This document shows positions 2,420-49,837 of a stretch of DNA of 64,000 nt, one piece after another. Numbering within the stretch: the first letter of the stretch is position 1; each line of letters opens with the position of its first letter. This DNA comes from Dysgonomonadaceae bacterium PH5-43 (GTDB taxonomy: Bacteria > Bacteroidota > Bacteroidia > Bacteroidales > Azobacteroidaceae). The notes beneath the pieces are model-generated. The model searched no databases, had not been told where the DNA came from, and saw only the letters and a list, made by a program, of their open reading frames with translations. The stretch spans positions 1 through 64,000 of the forward strand of contig JARXWK010000016.1 in assembly GCA_029916745.1 (NCBI GenBank). The letters run 5' to 3'. The position numbers and the translations under genes were made by a program.

Positions 2420-2467
2420 TTTATTTATTTATTAAATTTTCTTTTGGATTAGAAACTGTGCAGCCGC

Positions 2468-2492
2468 GATTACAGAGAGGGGTGTTGTAATC
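2468..2492 (-). promoter_or_regulatory. hairpin in the rpsD 5' leader
   Basis: GATTACA and TGTAATC form a perfect 7-bp stem around an 11-nt loop in the rpsK-rpsD gap. No T-run follows on the minus strand, so it is unlikely to be a terminator. S4 is an autoregulator in other bacteria, so a leader or processing site is possible. This is inference from position only. Confidence 0.4.
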
Positions 2493-43236: not shown

Positions 43237-44514
43237 TTAGAAGTTAAGTTTCTGTTGTCCATTTGAGTTGAGTTTAACAGTATCTTTTCTACCTATTTTA
43301 CCAATTGTTATGCTTCTGTCATCTTTAATTATCTCTTTAATGTACTTGTTTGATACTTTTCTTCCAGTTTCTTTCTTTATTTGTTCTATTATATTTGATA
43401 TAGGTATTTCGGACTTACCGTTCAACACATCATGTATTATTCTTAACAGATTTGTTTTATCATCACTAGTTTCTTTACTTTGCTTATCCTTTGGAGCTGG
43501 GTGTTCAATATTTGATTTTTTATAAAAGCGAAGATTCAATGAGTCATAATATAAATCATAGAATTTTCGGAAGCCGAAAAAAGCACCTAAGAGAATAATC
43601 GAATACAAGAAACTATCGCCGAATTCTTTTTTGAGAATCTCAAATTTTTTAATTAAATTTGTTTGTGTTATATCTTCTGAATTACGAATCTCATCTTTAA
43701 GTTTCAAATACAAAGGAGCTATAATATATTGTTTTATATTATCCTTGGTGTTTTGTGAAATATATCCTTTTGAATCTTCAGATTTTTCTAAAAGATCTAT
43801 TATACGCAGAGACTCTATTTGGGGGTCTTTCATGTTAAGTTGTTCTAAAAAGCCATAAACTTTACTTCCTTCAAAAGTAGGTTGTCCTTTACTGTGTGCA
43901 AAAATCAGTCCTGCGTCATAGAAATATCCCAGCATAGACTTTGAGAAATACTCATGTCTATCATAAGCTATTAAATATTCCCAATAATTACCATTTTGAA
44001 TTTCATCTGCTTTTGTTCCGTTTTTTCTATGTTCCAATCCTTTGATTATATTTTCAAAACCAAGTTTTAACAAATAATCCTCTAAAGGTTTTTCTATTTT
44101 ACAAATAGTCCATAATGATTGAATAGCATTATTCACTTCTCTATTTTGAATACCTACTTCTATTTTTGATAAGAGAGATTCAAAGATTGGATTTTCGAGC
44201 CTTATTCTTGGATCTATCTTTGATTCAATAGATTTTTTTGCTTGTTTTGAGAGTGGATATATTTTTACAATGTCGTTTATACCAACTTCTATATTTGCTT
44301 CTTGACTGTTGTTTATCTCTAAGTGAAGTATTAAGTACTCTTCATCATATTCAAAAGGTGTTGTCGTTTCAAATTGTTCTATAATTTGATTTTCAACTTT
44401 TTCTGTTATGTTTCCATCAAAATAAATCAGAGTACATTTAGGTATAAATGCACAGCCAAACCTATAGAATAGGTTAAACTGATTTCTTAATACAATACTT
44501 AAACAATTTGTCAT
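43237..44514 (-). CDS. unknown protein in the Hsp70-helicase operon
   Basis: A 425-residue protein that I do not recognise. The N-terminus (NQFNLFYRFGCAFIPKCTLI) is followed by alpha/beta and helical regions. A hydrophobic stretch near residues 300-315 (LYSIILLGAFFGF) may be a buried helix or a membrane-proximal segment. The last ~70 residues, with IIHDVLNGKSEIPISNIIEQ and then ETGRKVSNKYIKEIIKD, look like a winged-helix DNA-binding domain. It starts 2 bp after the helicase gene, so the three genes form one operon. A role as the specificity or effector part of that system is inference. Confidence 0.75.
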   Translation of the reverse strand: MTNCLSIVLRNQFNLFYRFGCAFIPKCTLIYFDGNITEKVENQIIEQFETTTPFEYDEEYLILHLEINNSQEANIEVGINDIVKIYPLSKQAKKSIESKIDPRIRLENPIFESLLSKIEVGIQNREVNNAIQSLWTICKIEKPLEDYLLKLGFENIIKGLEHRKNGTKADEIQNGNYWEYLIAYDRHEYFSKSMLGYFYDAGLIFAHSKGQPTFEGSKVYGFLEQLNMKDPQIESLRIIDLLEKSEDSKGYISQNTKDNIKQYIIAPLYLKLKDEIRNSEDITQTNLIKKFEILKKEFGDSFLYSIILLGAFFGFRKFYDLYYDSLNLRFYKKSNIEHPAPKDKQSKETSDDKTNLLRIIHDVLNGKSEIPISNIIEQIKKETGRKVSNKYIKEIIKDDRSITIGKIGRKDTVKLNSNGQQKLNF

Positions 44515-44516
44515 AA

Positions 44517-45857
44517 CTAAAAATCAAAGTCGTCAATTGAATTGTTAGAATCTGGAATATTTGATATTGAAATCTGAGTACATTCATCTTTAATCTCATC
44601 AATTAAATAATTTGCATGTCCAGAATATGTTAAATATAGATTCTTTCTACTTCTTGTTATTGCAACTATAAATAATAGTTCGTATTTGTTGACATACGAA
44701 TAACCAGGATCAGCTTGAAATGGCAAAAAAACATTATTAAAATCAAGTCCTTTTGAACTGTGATAGGTCATTAAAACAGCTTCTTTATTTTGTTCTGCTT
44801 CAAGCAAAGAACCATGGCTATTACCAACATATTGAAGCTTTACATTTTGCTCTCTTAAATATTTATTCATAGAATCGTAATCATATCCTATTGTTTTTTC
44901 TTTTAGCTCAAAATCAATTCCATTTGATTTTAATCTTTCACATTCTTTTTCCGCAGCCGATTTAGTTGCAAAATATCCTATATGCGACTTTTTATTTTGT
45001 CTTTCGAATATTTTTTTACTTATGATATTTTGAGCTTTTTGCTCATTTGAAAAATCAATACAAACATAGTATAGGTTCTTGCGTTGAGGAATCCACTTTG
45101 GTTTATTATTCACTTGTAAAACTTCATTAACAAACTGAACTATACTATAGTGTATAGGTATCAAAATCACACTTGTTTCATTAACTGCAGGACCTTTTAT
45201 AGCTTCATTGTAAACATACTTAACCTCATCTGTTATATTTTGAGCTTCACATACTCTAATTTTAACATCTACTTTTGTCAAATCTCTCTTTGATCCTCCA
45301 AACATAAACGGTGCTATTTTTTGCACAGCTCTAATAATGCTTCTTGGTAAACGATATATCCTATTTAGAGAAAAAGCTTTTGCGTTAAGTATCTTTCCTA
45401 TATCAGAAGGCTTAACTACACTCTCGTACCATTTTGGATCTCTATCATAAATAGATTGGTTAGAATCTCCAGCAACTATTACTTTATTAGCACCATCTTT
45501 CATTGCAACTAAAACACGATTGGTTAAATCCTGCACTTCGTCACAAAATATATAATCGAATCTTTGATTTTTCTTATTGTAAAAATCAACATAAGTCATT
45601 ACGGGTATACTATTAGGTAGCCCCAACTCTTTCATTCCTGTTTTAAATAGATCAACTAAAGAGCATGTATAAACTACAATAGCGACTTTAGCAGAAGGAT
45701 TTTTCTGAATTACTTCTCTTAAGGCGTGAACAAGCAAAACTGACTTTCCACTTCCTGCAAATCCTTTCACCCATATATTTCCTGTCTTTTTTGATTCTAC
45801 ATTAATAAAATCTCTTTGATCTGGATCTAATTGATCCTCTCTTACCATCCAAGCCAT
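44517..45857 (-). CDS. compact superfamily 1 (UvrD/Rep-like) helicase
   Basis: A 446-residue SF1 ATPase. Visible motifs are a Q-like motif (DPDQRDFI), Walker A KGFAGSGKSVLL at 31-42, Walker B FCDEVQDL at 104-111, motif III VIVAGDSNQSIYDRD at 126-140, motif IV SLNRIYRLPRSI, motif V MTYHSSKGLDF at 363-373 and motif VI FIVAITRSRKNLY at 396-408. It is much shorter than UvrD or Rep (about 670-720), lacking the large 1B/2B insertions. It is 6 bp after the Hsp70 gene and 2 bp before the unknown gene. The partner genes point to an accessory system and not to general repair. Confidence 0.88.
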   Translation of the reverse strand: MAWMVREDQLDPDQRDFINVESKKTGNIWVKGFAGSGKSVLLVHALREVIQKNPSAKVAIVVYTCSLVDLFKTGMKELGLPNSIPVMTYVDFYNKKNQRFDYIFCDEVQDLTNRVLVAMKDGANKVIVAGDSNQSIYDRDPKWYESVVKPSDIGKILNAKAFSLNRIYRLPRSIIRAVQKIAPFMFGGSKRDLTKVDVKIRVCEAQNITDEVKYVYNEAIKGPAVNETSVILIPIHYSIVQFVNEVLQVNNKPKWIPQRKNLYYVCIDFSNEQKAQNIISKKIFERQNKKSHIGYFATKSAAEKECERLKSNGIDFELKEKTIGYDYDSMNKYLREQNVKLQYVGNSHGSLLEAEQNKEAVLMTYHSSKGLDFNNVFLPFQADPGYSYVNKYELLFIVAITRSRKNLYLTYSGHANYLIDEIKDECTQISISNIPDSNNSIDDFDF

Positions 45858-45863
45858 AATATT

Positions 45864-48290
45864 TCATTTTTTAATTAAACCTTCTTCTGTCGATATTTTT
45901 GTTAGATTCTCTGAATTATAAAATTTTTCACCTGTAAACTTGGGTTTTGAATTCCTTACCTGTTTTGCATACTCTCTCATACCTAATTCTTCTGCAACGG
46001 AGACAAGCCACCCATATTCATTGTCATGCAATCTGTTTCTTTCATATTTGTTTTTCCATATTTCAAATGCCTTTTTAATCATTTCTTCTCCTTTGGGATT
46101 ATTCTCTCTATTAAGAATTTGTCCCAGTTCGCACAAACTATGAGGCATGTTAGGATCAAATAACAAAGACTCTTCTAAAATTTCTTTACTCTTATTAGGG
46201 TCTTTGTATTTTAATTTTAGAGCATAGTTGAATGCCGTAGTTGCATTCTTATCCATATTATACGCTAATTCATAATATTCTAAAGCCTTGCTTTCATGTC
46301 CTGCATTTGAATACAATACACCTATTGCATTGTAATTCTTAGTATTTGGGTATAATTCGTTTAACAGTTCTAATGTTTCTGCTGCTCGCAAATCTTTCCC
46401 AACTTTTTCGTAAGCCTGGTATAAGGTCGTCAGCCCTTCTTTTGTTGGTCTTCCTCCATTCTGTTCAGCTTCAAGATTTGCTTGCCTCTCTGCTCTTAAC
46501 ACAACTCTTTCCTCTGCGGAAAGTTCTTTGTTTGCAAATGGATTTATAGGCTCAACAAAAACAGATTGCCCTTCTGCTGAAGCCCGTGCTATAAGCAATT
46601 TATCTGCTGTAATTTCTAATTCTAATTTTACAGTAACATTACGTTTGAAGCCCTCTCTACAACCGCTAACAATTTTAATATTATAAAGAAGTTTATTTTT
46701 ATTACCTAAACAAATAGGTAGTTCTATTGCCTTTTGTCCGTCTTTACTTGTTACTAAATCATCAATAACAATCAAATCACAAGGTATATGCGTACCTGCT
46801 TTAAGAATAACTTTAGGTGTTTCATCTTTTGTGATAACGATAAAAGGCTCGCTGGTAATAGGCTGTATGATATTCTTCCCAAAACCATTAAAAACTAATG
46901 AATGAATTGCAGCCCCTGAAGAAACATGAGTTTGCAAGTCTCTTGGAATCAATATTTCTGACTCTTTGAAATATTCTTTAAGTGCTGTTTGTACGTATGG
47001 ATTTTTTGAACTACCACCAATGAACAATACATAATCAATATCATTTTTAGAGAGATTCGCTTTTTTCAAGGCCGTTTGAATAGGATTGAAAATTGTAATA
47101 AATTCATCTTCTACTTTTTTAGTTCTATATGGCAACAGATTGCTCGACTTCAAAAAGACTTTCATAACCTCATTAAACTCTGCATAAGATAATTTAGGCT
47201 CTGTTAATGTTAATAAGCCCTTCCTTGAATCTATTCTGACAGGATAACCTATCGAAACATAATCTCTACTTGTTGCCGATTGAGGCAATACTCGATTACT
47301 CATTTGCAATGCTATTTTATCACAAATAATAATTTTCAACTGCTCAGCTGTTTTTAATAACTGAGTAATTATTCTATTTTTTTCTGGTGTTCTAAAATCA
47401 GACTGTTCCTTTTTACTTTCTTCGAGTAATTTAGGAAACAAATAATCAATAGCTATAAGCCTATCGATATCATCTCCTCCTAGTTTTTCAAACTTTGAAA
47501 TTGAAAGATTTTTAGAATATATTCCATCTAGGTCTTTTCCTAATTCAAGGACTGAAACATCACACGTTCCTGCTCCAAAATCGAAAACTAACACTTTAGG
47601 ATTATCTCCATCAGGAAGAGTTATTGAATTATTTTCCATAGAAGAGACTTGAACATAACTTAGGAATGCAGCATTTGGCTCATCAATCAAAGATTGTTTA
47701 TTTATTGAAATTCCATTTTGTTCGAGAGCATACATCAATTCCTTTCGTTGATTAGCCTCGAATGAAGCGGGAATACTAACTGCATACTGAATGTGTTTAG
47801 GCAAATTCTTTTCTCTAATATATCTTTCTATCTGAACCTCAAGGTATTGAAAAAAGACTTTTGCTGCATCTTTAGGGTTCAATATAGGATAATTACTATT
47901 CCTATCAAGCTCGCTATTGTAATATTTCGCCCCTAAATCTTCCCCTAATTCCATCTTAAAAGAATACCAAATATTAACACCTTTCTTCAGCCTATATTTC
48001 AAGTCAGATGCTCCTTCCCCAACCAACAACTGTTGGTTATGCCATGCTATAACCGTTGGAATTTTTTCTGATGAATAAATTGCCCCATCGCTTAATTTTT
48101 GATTAAGTCGAATAGAATTTGTTATTACTCCCCCTCCTTGCTTATCTATTGTTGCTATTGACACCACAGTTGTAGAAGTACCAAAATCAATCCCAATAAA
48201 AGTTGTATTGAAAATATCTGTTTCTTGACGTGCAAGTTTGCTGTCTTTTATTACAGGTAGTAAACTTTCTATATTAATTTCTGTTGCCAT
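45864..48290 (-). CDS. Hsp70-family ATPase fused to C-terminal TPRs
   Basis: An 808-residue protein. The N-terminal actin-like ATPase domain has phosphate-1 FIGIDFGTSTTVVSIAT (31-47), the connect region LIDEPNAAFLSYV (201-213), phosphate-2 KVLVFDFGAGTCDVSVLEL (232-250) and the adenosine motif YVLFIGGSSKNPYVQTAL (420-437). A beta-rich part at about 475-580 takes the place of the substrate-binding domain. A helical linker and TPRs follow at about 645-745 (IGVLYSNAGHESKALEYYEL). The DnaK lid and EEVD-like end are missing, and no dnaJ or grpE is adjacent. It is not the housekeeping DnaK and is the first gene of a three-gene operon. Confidence 0.9.
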   Translation of the reverse strand: MATEINIESLLPVIKDSKLARQETDIFNTTFIGIDFGTSTTVVSIATIDKQGGGVITNSIRLNQKLSDGAIYSSEKIPTVIAWHNQQLLVGEGASDLKYRLKKGVNIWYSFKMELGEDLGAKYYNSELDRNSNYPILNPKDAAKVFFQYLEVQIERYIREKNLPKHIQYAVSIPASFEANQRKELMYALEQNGISINKQSLIDEPNAAFLSYVQVSSMENNSITLPDGDNPKVLVFDFGAGTCDVSVLELGKDLDGIYSKNLSISKFEKLGGDDIDRLIAIDYLFPKLLEESKKEQSDFRTPEKNRIITQLLKTAEQLKIIICDKIALQMSNRVLPQSATSRDYVSIGYPVRIDSRKGLLTLTEPKLSYAEFNEVMKVFLKSSNLLPYRTKKVEDEFITIFNPIQTALKKANLSKNDIDYVLFIGGSSKNPYVQTALKEYFKESEILIPRDLQTHVSSGAAIHSLVFNGFGKNIIQPITSEPFIVITKDETPKVILKAGTHIPCDLIVIDDLVTSKDGQKAIELPICLGNKNKLLYNIKIVSGCREGFKRNVTVKLELEITADKLLIARASAEGQSVFVEPINPFANKELSAEERVVLRAERQANLEAEQNGGRPTKEGLTTLYQAYEKVGKDLRAAETLELLNELYPNTKNYNAIGVLYSNAGHESKALEYYELAYNMDKNATTAFNYALKLKYKDPNKSKEILEESLLFDPNMPHSLCELGQILNRENNPKGEEMIKKAFEIWKNKYERNRLHDNEYGWLVSVAEELGMREYAKQVRNSKPKFTGEKFYNSENLTKISTEEGLIKK

Positions 48291-48332
48291 AAATTAGATT
48301 GTAATTAATTGATATTTTTTCCTTTAAACCAC

Positions 48333-48354
48333 AAAAAGGCATGAAACTTGCCTT
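48333..48354 (-). terminator. terminator of the structured RNA upstream of the Hsp70 gene
   Basis: On the minus strand AAGGCA-loop-TGCCTT (6-bp stem, 7-nt loop) is followed by five T. It lies 43 bp before the Hsp70 start, so it either ends a separate small RNA or acts as an attenuator for the operon. Its GGCAA arm can instead pair with 48485-48489 near the 5' end of the RNA, an alternative fold. Confidence 0.7.
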
Positions 48355-48560
48355 ATCAGTCTTCTCAGGTATCGCCAAACACCTACAACTACAAATAAGG
48401 AAGCTCATGCCTAAAACATGAGCATTCGCTTACTGCTCTTGTAGTTGTTTTTCTAATGAAATTGGCGATTTCGAGAAAACTACGGGCAATAAAGCAAACG
48501 CTTTATATATCTATGTCTTATTGTTTATTTAATTATCTATAAGCAAATTGTTTTATATTA
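48336..48560 (-). ncRNA. structured non-coding RNA, 6S-like or operon leader
   Basis: About 170-225 nt on the minus strand between a consensus promoter and a terminator. Nested stems (plus-strand positions) are TTGCC/GGCAA (48348-48352 with 48485-48489), AGTCTTCTC/GAGAAAACT (48358-48366 with 48473-48481, one G-U), ATCGCCAA/TTGGCGAT (48371-48378 with 48462-48469), ACAACTACAA/TTGTAGTTGT (48385-48394 with 48439-48448) and a terminal hairpin GCTCATG/CATGAGC (48403-48409 with 48417-48423). An asymmetric bubble separates the third and fourth stems. A long rod with a central bubble is the shape of 6S RNA, and Bacteroidales carry a diverged 6S-like RNA. The alternative is a cis-acting leader of the Hsp70 operon. 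Confidence 0.65.
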
Positions 48561-48566
48561 ATTATG

Positions 48567-48596
48567 CAAATATATAAACAATTGTCTAATTAACAA
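48567..48596 (-). promoter_or_regulatory. promoter of the structured RNA
   Basis: TTG (48594-48596), a 19-bp spacer and TATATTTG (48567-48574) on the minus strand are a full consensus match. The predicted start is near 48560. It is the only full promoter match seen upstream of the Hsp70 operon. Confidence 0.75.
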
Positions 48597-48598
48597 GG

Positions 48599-48769
48599 TC
48601 TTTGCTAAAAAATTAAAACACAAGGCACGAGCTTGGATACAAAGCTACAGTATTAAGTAATTGACATTGAAGTTCTGCAAGGCTTGCAGAACTAAAGAAA
48701 TGTAGATATTTGTTGGGGCTTATTACAAACTACCTTATAGATCTTATTAAATACTCTTTGTCGTTGTTA
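48599..48769. repeat. 171-bp direct repeat, copy 1
   Basis: Aligns without gaps to 49489-49659 at an offset of exactly 890 bp, with only about ten mismatches, most of them near the right end. It contains a perfect 11-bp inverted repeat around one central G (AGTTCTGCAAG at 48671-48681, CTTGCAGAACT at 48683-48693). No reading frame runs through it. It begins 2 bp from the -33 element of the structured RNA promoter. Confidence 0.9.
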
Positions 48770-48816
48770 ATAAAGTTCATAAGTTAATTCATGCAACATA
48801 AATATCTCTGCTATTG

Positions 48817-49401: not shown

Positions 49402-49488
49402 TTTATTATCCCTAATTATGTGTCGGGCACAACATTTTAATTTCGCCTACTCTAATCAGTTTTCGGCTTCCCTTTTTATCATTTAAGC

Positions 49489-49659
49489 TCTTTGCTAAAA
49501 AATTAAAACACAAGGCACGAGCTTGGATACAAAACTACAGTATTAAGTAATTGACATTGAAGTTCTGCAAGGCTTGCAGAACTAAAGAAATGTAGATATT
49601 GGTTTGGGCTTATTACAAACTACCATACCGCTCTTATTAAATACTCTTTGTCGTTGTTA
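49489..49659. repeat. 171-bp direct repeat, copy 2
   Basis: Same orientation as copy 1 at 48599-48769. The 11-bp inverted repeat with a central G is conserved at 49561-49583. The two copies bracket the two small membrane protein genes. The 23-bp-period array begins 17 bp after this copy. Confidence 0.9.
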
Positions 49660-49676
49660 CTAGATAGGCGAGCTGC

Positions 49677-49837
49677 TTCTTAGGAGATACCCCTTGCCGT
49701 TCTTAGGAGATACCCGATGCCGCTCTTAGTAGAACCTCCCCGCCTTAATACTTAAAGCACCCATTCTCTCTTAGTAGAGAGACCTCGCCTATCTCAGTAG
49801 AGAGTCAAGGGGTCTCTACTAAGAGAGGAGACCCTAA
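49677..49837. repeat. 23-bp-period degenerate tandem array (TCTTAGTAGAGA type)
   Basis: Seven units start at 49677, 49700, 49723, 49746, 49769, 49792 and 49815, each 23 bp. The core is (T/C)TCTTAG(T/G)AGA with variable 10-12-bp remainders. The last units form partly inverted copies (CTTAGTAGAGAGACC against GGTCTCTACTAAGAG). No reading frame crosses it. The remaining DNA to 49980 is A/T-rich filler with GTTAAAAGTTAA-like words. Confidence 0.8.

Follow-up and report, generated by a model that had tools for sequence, protein, structure and literature searches.

An apparently undescribed family of 5' leader RNAs in Bacteroidota with two competing sets of covarying helices

The RNA upstream of the Hsp70-like operon

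The window analyzed here, a stretch of 64,000 nucleotides from contig JARXWK010000016.1 of Dysgonomonadaceae bacterium PH5-43, carries on its minus strand three genes that apparently form one operon (43,237-48,290). The first encodes an Hsp70-like protein of 808 residues with a TPR-like C-terminal part (45,864-48,290), the second a 446-residue UvrD/superfamily 1 helicase-like protein (44,517-45,857), and the third a 425-residue protein (43,237-44,514) with a family match in none of the three libraries searched. The operon is possibly a defence module: PADLOC gave partial GajB-like and other helicase matches to the second gene (at least 25 among the matches listed); the other four proteins scanned had no match. 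The Hsp70-like gene was sought in 45 genomes of the bacterial family and, at E up to 1e-60, found in the window genome only. One relative of the Hsp70-like protein (L010) lies in a MAG labelled Roseburia and is possibly mis-binned or transferred.

Ahead of the first gene, on the same strand, lies a structured leader RNA (48,333-48,560), whose start near 48,560 and end at a U-tract are predicted and not mapped positions. The promoter (48,567-48,596) consists of TTG at 48,596-48,594 and a -7 element, TATATTTG, at 48,574-48,567, which we take to be a promoter motif of the Bacteroidota type. Because a generic sigma-70 scan did no better than shuffles (10 promoters found against 11.8 expected), the support for this promoter comes from conservation of the motif upstream of the family members described below. 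The terminator (48,333-48,354) comprises a tail, arm k (48,347-48,338), and the U-tract (48,337-48,333); in the window member a local 6-bp terminator hairpin spans 48,354-48,336, the T run reaches 48,333, and 43 bp separate this end from the Hsp70 ATG at 48,290. A preliminary description of the locus had proposed this promoter, this terminator and its distance from the gene, and had seen no other full promoter for the operon; all of these points hold, and TANNTTTG is absent from the window sequence read between the terminator and the Hsp70 ATG. A 178-nt sequence is present in two direct copies, 890 nt apart and with 95% identity, at 48,595-48,772 and 49,485-49,662 of the window, the first starting at the leader promoter and extending upstream of it. 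Repeats of ~23 nt starting with TTCTTAG or CTCTTAG lie at 49,677-49,790, and similar repeats follow a decayed copy of the RNA on contig C20 (about 1,640-1,830 of locus L002).

The RNA is predicted to fold with high stability: 48,510-48,357 has a minimum free energy of -57.3 kcal/mol (z -7.14), equalled by none of 200 dinucleotide shuffles, and the longer stretch 48,545-48,330 reaches -68.5 (z -6.33). Along the minus strand the elements are arm a AGCGTTTGC (48,494-48,502), the variable P1 5' strand (48,472-48,482), the P2 5' strand ATCGCCAA (48,462-48,469), the variable P3 5' strand (48,439-48,448), arm e GCGAATGCT (48,421-48,429), the P4 hairpin (48,403-48,423), whose 3' arm is arm g (48,411-48,403), the P3 3' strand (48,385-48,394), GGTGT-TTGGCGAT-ACC as the P2 3' strand (48,368-48,383), the P1 3' strand (48,357-48,367), and finally the tail. 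Arm a may pair with arm e, in a fold of two hairpins, or with the tail, in a rod; arm g may pair within P4 or alternatively with the tail, as helix T; the P2 5' strand would lie in the apical loop of the first of the two hairpins; and GGT and ACC of the P2 3' strand may alternatively form a small hairpin, HP-B. The nested stems of the preliminary description are present, and four of them, P1-P4, are common to the family and covary.

Distribution and genomic setting of the family

The rod-with-bubble shape had earlier been taken to fit 6S RNA, an identification that the Rfam covariance-model search does not support: with E values as high as 10 allowed, the 6S model (RF00013) finds nothing in 48,200-48,800, and it has no match in the whole genome, and the same search was positive in five of 14 control genomes. 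The Bacteroidales-1 model (RF01693), whose application had been proposed together with that of 6S, has no match in 48,200-48,800 at E up to 10; Bacteroidales-1 is likewise a structured RNA of Bacteroidales found in this genome, where the full-length copy occupies a different locus (C10:80,562-80,741, 156.8 bits). A rod with internal loops and a terminator would suit a variant of either RNA, but that identity has a negligible probability given that neither model matches, that the Bacteroidales-1 RNA of the genome is elsewhere, and that the present RNA occurs in six copies in the genome, each ahead of a co-directional gene. With all of Rfam 15 at gathering score no family was found at the RNA, the window yielding only an S4-Bacteroidia ribosomal protein leader (2,461-2,492, minus strand, 42.4 bits), and over 12 member loci only two tRNAs were returned, with none at gathering score on the RNA.

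Other known designs were compared with the RNA. FopS small RNAs have a single-stranded 5' stretch and one terminator hairpin, a different architecture; a leader of the UpxY type would precede a UpxY-like gene, and the window operon opens with an Hsp70-like gene. Neither the proteins of the window operon (Pfam) nor 40 scanned downstream proteins include a reverse transcriptase family such as would accompany a retron RNA. As to a conserved aptamer core of the riboswitch type, P1, P2 and P3 all vary and only small loops are conserved. The common downstream pathway expected of a metabolite riboswitch is not seen, the downstream proteins being very diverse (40 of the 50 listed were scanned).

A DNA search of the 45 genomes of the bacterial family gave several relatives of the RNA with 70-80% identity. 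Of 393 Bacteroidales genomes, 50 contain the 17-mer GGTGTTTGGCGATACCT, and the reversed 17-mer, used as a control, is absent from the genomes listed; when aligned, the places with this 17-mer show one common architecture. A covariance model, R1, was built from 39 sequences, and its core match in the window (48,351-48,486, minus strand) scores 95.5 bits, the window sequence itself being among the 39. R1 matches 156 of the 393 Bacteroidales genomes, 140 of the 326 better ones, and 24 genomes in a set of 247 that spans the phylum Bacteroidota; copy numbers are lower limits, because at most eight candidates per genome were scored in the set of 393 and at most 13 in the set of 247. The window genome has at least six copies above the R1 threshold and one decayed copy, and DNA comparison of the window RNA with its own genome finds, beyond itself, only a 31-nt piece of the latter. 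DNA searches of plasmids (two queries) and phages (one query) gave two plasmids and no phage: in the Parabacteroides distasonis plasmid the next annotated gene encodes a hypothetical protein on the same strand, and the Phocaeicola massiliensis record is unannotated. When viral contigs were scanned with the pattern, 39 stretches emerged, and R1 scores above 40 bits in 19 of them. Neighbouring copies are seen only occasionally, as in genome G052. The RNA is palindromic, and the opposite strand weakly matches R1 (21.6-28.8 bits) at six loci (L050, L056, L073, L053, L066 and L049). Four contigs of genome G393 (C4, C36, C39 and C45) end about 80-200 nt past the RNA core, perhaps due to similar paralogous genes behind the RNA (FGE-sulfatase and glycine-rich domains at L083). 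Thus the RNA family is large and widespread in Bacteroidota, and it is apparently undescribed and unnamed: no description of it was found in the literature searched, preprints and most subscription papers lying outside the reach of that search.

On the sequence evidence the members are cis-acting 5' leader RNAs of about 200-230 nt that have a promoter to themselves and, typically some tens of bases ahead of the gene, a terminator. A simple ORF rule was applied to 120 members with model matches, of which nine lie near a contig end and 11 have no gene within 600 nt; the downstream gene within that distance is on the same strand in 98 of the 100 called cases, although these genes include related paralogues and are not all independent. 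Its start codon lies a median of 76 nt past the model end (quartiles 60 and 158). Upstream genes are on the same strand in 63 cases and on the opposite strand in 42. In an earlier, smaller set 49 of 50 downstream genes were co-directional, and the members first found by R1 (36) or BLAST (2) gave 33 of 34, with four lacking a called gene. Between -120 and -40 relative to the model start, 84 of 117 members carry the -7 motif TANNTTTG; the adjoining 80 nt further upstream contain it in 11 of 117, and 8.8 are expected from shuffles. From +20 to +100 after the model end a sense promoter motif is found in only 4 of 111 members (an antisense one in 12 of 111). Of 119 members, 109 have a run of four or more T at +10 to +60; two control intervals contain such a run in 48 and 69 of them. 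It is the co-directional downstream genes, together with a promoter motif before the RNA and rarely after it, that point to a leader acting in cis. In most of the member pairs listed, similarity stops near the promoter and near or shortly before the start codon, so that the module appears to consist of promoter and RNA; some pairs also share flanks, and different cargo follows the same upstream region in L058 and L059.

The genes behind the leader show no common pathway or function among the 40 scanned of the 50 listed, a set that includes one opposite-strand case (L091); 26 of the 40 match a Pfam family with an E value of 0.01 or lower, several of them weakly. They encode BspA-type leucine-rich proteins, proteins with T9SS sorting or BACON domains, a Bor-like protein, a LytTR regulator, an HsdR-N protein, a UbiA enzyme, a LanC-like protein and an alpha-L-fucosidase, as well as an exonuclease followed by a second protein, which is presumably DUF262-like. 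The six copies of the window genome precede the Hsp70 operon, the exonuclease pair, genes for proteins of 90 and 109 residues, and genes for proteins of 421 and 1,144 residues that start in the manner of secreted proteins. For the RNA family as a whole Hsp70 is an incidental neighbour, and an Hsp70 association as a family feature is ruled out: the Hsp70-like protein has relatives at 12 loci examined, three with 77-79% identity, and the leader is absent from all 12 (upstream sequence was limited to 610 nt in L005 and 1,925 nt in L008). The best R1 score among the 12 is 14.1 bits (E 0.6, L016), at a position that is not upstream of the gene.

Competing helices and variable stems

Both halves of the RNA are complementary in two ways, the arms being able to form a-k and e-g in the rod or a-e and g-k in two hairpins, an arrangement resembling a four-way exchange. 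In 39 sequences the rod helices P1-P4 have 90.1% of cells paired, compared with 34-46% for slid partners. P1, P2 and HP-B together reach 97.7% in 106 rows, against 28-54% when slid, and have 421 double-change cells against 96.1 in shuffles; these counts lean towards structure because the rows were aligned by a model that contains P1 and P2, in an alignment that also keeps the six weak opposite-strand matches. The common core is absent from 42 of the 120 members. An apparent invariance of P2 in alignments A1 and A2 was an artefact, most loci having been picked by an exact 17-mer that includes the P2 3' strand; in the wider set the invariance vanishes and P2 varies yet pairs. For the competing fold, the two hairpins a-e and g-k have 85.2% of cells paired against 36-58% for slid partners, helix T, which joins the terminator arm to the 3' strand of P4, has 91.6%, and the 5' arm with the tail 86.2% against 28-70%; the counts for a-e, g-k and the 5' end again lean towards structure, since their columns were chosen as the best-scoring helices of the same alignment.

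In a second test the duplex energy of each member's own partners was compared with that of 25 random others in 119 members. The own partner beat all 25 others for P1 in 86 of 119, for P3 in 67, for P4 in 51, for a-e in 45, for g-k in 35, for P2, which is common to most members, in 26, and for the 5' end with the tail in only 6. Relatedness inflates these counts, so that the slid controls matter most; P3 takes its support from the duplex test, being poorly aligned in A2 (66.4% of cells paired). Arm g is common to helix T and P4, each of which covaries, and the terminator stem thus excludes another conserved stem. Taken together, the comparative evidence is that there are two competing sets of covarying helices, a rod and a pair of hairpins, the second running out into the U-tract. 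In the two-hairpin fold the P2 strands would lie in the two apical loops, GAAA..TTTC and GGY..RCC, which remain complementary through P2 and may make a kissing contact.

The preliminary description had let the terminator arm pair also with the 5' end of the RNA to give two exclusive folds, as in attenuators. Exclusive folds are supported for the family by the covariation of the competing helices, although in the window member the rod and the local terminator hairpin are predicted to coexist, so that there the folds are not wholly exclusive as regards termination; the particular pairing of terminator arm and 5' end is paired in most alignment cells but is hardly supported by the own-versus-other test. 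The more general suggestion of a leader or attenuator with alternative folds is supported by the covariation and by the place of the members upstream of co-directional genes.

Across the family P1, P2 and P3 change in sequence yet stay paired. Among nine paralogues in genome G393 mean identity is 49.7% in P1, 67.5% in P3, 98.6% in P2 and 83.0% elsewhere, and in the closest pair (L085/L086) the corresponding values are 61, 75, 100 and 97%; three paralogues in G216 give 53.7% for P1, 85.8% for P3, 100% for P2 and 93.3% elsewhere, the P2 values of both genomes being biased because the copies were found by a pattern containing P2. Seven related copies from different genomes (family f124) have 55.3% identity in P1, 82.6% in P3 and 75.8% elsewhere. 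P1 diverges more than any other part in three of the six groups compared; in G592 (63.6 vs 63.8%) and G000 (42.3 vs 44.5%) it has not diverged beyond the rest, and G052 has two copies with the same tags. The six copies of the window genome have five different P2 sequences. The excess divergence of P1 and the varied P2 tags suggest that these segments may be pressed to differ, and a speculative reading is that P1-P3 are identity tags in a barcoded self-recognition, by which a terminated leader would act in trans only on nascent leaders with the same tag. We consider this improbable, the more so because excess change in P1 is found in three of six groups. If true, it would keep the copies within a cell apart, in the manner of plasmid incompatibility groups, and related copies would diversify their tags, both strands staying complementary.

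Attenuation and its alternatives

The leader probably works as a transcription attenuator, a reading to which we give a probability of about 0.55. In the rod the halves of the RNA would pair through P1-P4 and the tail would stay outside any strong terminator stem, allowing polymerase to read into the gene (ON). In the two-hairpin fold each half would close on itself, as a-e and g-k, and the second hairpin would meet the U-tract and cause termination; it is because a strong stem adjoins the U-tract that this fold is read as OFF. The choice of fold would then set the mRNA level of whatever gene follows, which in the window is that of the Hsp70 operon. Candidate triggers are elongation speed, a protein, a ligand, or a released leader acting in trans; since the downstream genes share no function, they give no pointer to the signal.

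Energies and folding order are real weaknesses of a simple equilibrium model. The average energy of the tail-free rod is -60.9 and that of the two hairpins, counted without kissing energy, -55.6, with -66.2 for the unconstrained fold; only 22 of 119 members have the two hairpins at a lower energy than the tail-free rod, and the rod is thus favoured in energy models. In the window member the tail-free rod has -58.9 against -60.4 for the two hairpins, and the unconstrained minimum, -64.0, combines the rod with the local 6-bp terminator hairpin, so that the rod need not prevent termination there, and the attenuator mechanism is rated lower on this account. In stepwise minimum-energy folding of six chosen members the first hairpin is followed by P4, and P4 by all or most of the rod, at a stage when the tail has yet to be made; termination through helix T would consequently need a kinetic trap, a delay or an outside partner. 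The long loop of the terminator also counts against attenuation, and the tail paired with the 5' end in the rod, next to the U-tract, might itself terminate.

Among other explanations, a leader that senses a metabolite or protein through its conserved loops (GAAA/ACCT and AATTT/GGGT around P2), with the paired segments as a drifting scaffold, would account for the position in cis, for loop letters that are kept while P1 and P2 change, and for the groups G592, G000 and G052, in which P1 is no more divergent than the rest, as drift predicts. We regard it as unlikely, though worth keeping in view, because the scanned downstream genes (40 of 50 listed) are functionally unrelated and because P1 in G393 and G216 has changed far more than the rest, beyond the drift expected of a scaffold. 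The promoter motif and terminator that the RNA owns, and the ability of the window member's rod and local terminator to coexist, would equally suit an independent small RNA acting in trans with the downstream gene as a bystander, and multicopy small-RNA families such as FopS are described in Bacteroides (PMC11697453). Bystander genes would hardly be co-directional 98 times out of 100, with start codons a median of 76 nt past the model end, hardly any promoter motif between and a much smaller bias among upstream genes (63 vs 42), and we think a trans-acting RNA of this sort quite unlikely.

The preservation of palindromic stems in shape and not in sequence, and the different cargo found behind the same upstream region (L058, L059) or between homologous flanks (L054, L104), recall instead a DNA element, namely a recombination or insertion site that folds as single strand, like an integron attC, with cargo genes behind it. 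A DNA site would have no need of covariation between the tail and P4, neighbouring copies are only occasional (e.g. G052), and the upstream promoter motif in 84 of 117 members and the T run after the tail (109 of 119 vs 48 and 69 in controls) count against it as well; this explanation is accordingly a very remote one. Attenuation by a cis-acting leader is therefore the reading that we prefer.

Plasmid antisense pairs such as RNAI/RNAII and CopA/CopT consist of hairpins with complementary loops, whose loop sequence decides the partner. Unlike these, the leaders described here hold both partners in one molecule ahead of ordinary genes, and loop-loop or trans pairing is conjectural for them. The leader Rli51 of Listeria is reported as a long 5' leader predicted to form a terminator or an antiterminator, whose terminated form is a small RNA, and a trans small RNA that binds a loop is required for premature termination (PMC11394854). 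Rli51 is one leader for one gene (PMC11394854), in contrast to a phylum-wide family ahead of unrelated genes; complementary halves and variable paired segments are a feature of the present family and not of Rli51, and attenuation is here something that we infer. In the leaders of Bacteroides capsule operons termination within the untranslated leader is relieved for the cognate operon by UpxY, a protein encoded at the start of that operon (PMC7315117), whereas the window operon starts with an Hsp70-like gene. FopS/GibS of B. thetaiotaomicron is likewise a multicopy Bacteroides RNA family; FopS has a single-stranded 5' stretch, a terminator hairpin and a conserved seed (PMC11697453), which differs from a palindromic leader of ~200 nt.

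That both strands of the paired segments can change while the rest of the RNA holds raises the question of what selects for such change. The choice between two folds is a clear and testable design, and may possibly provide RNA switches for the engineering of Bacteroides. With the leader present in about four of ten sampled Bacteroidales genomes (156/393), and unmatched in Rfam 15 where tested, many accessory genes of gut and environmental bacteria would be affected, among them genes for surface proteins, regulators and possibly defence.
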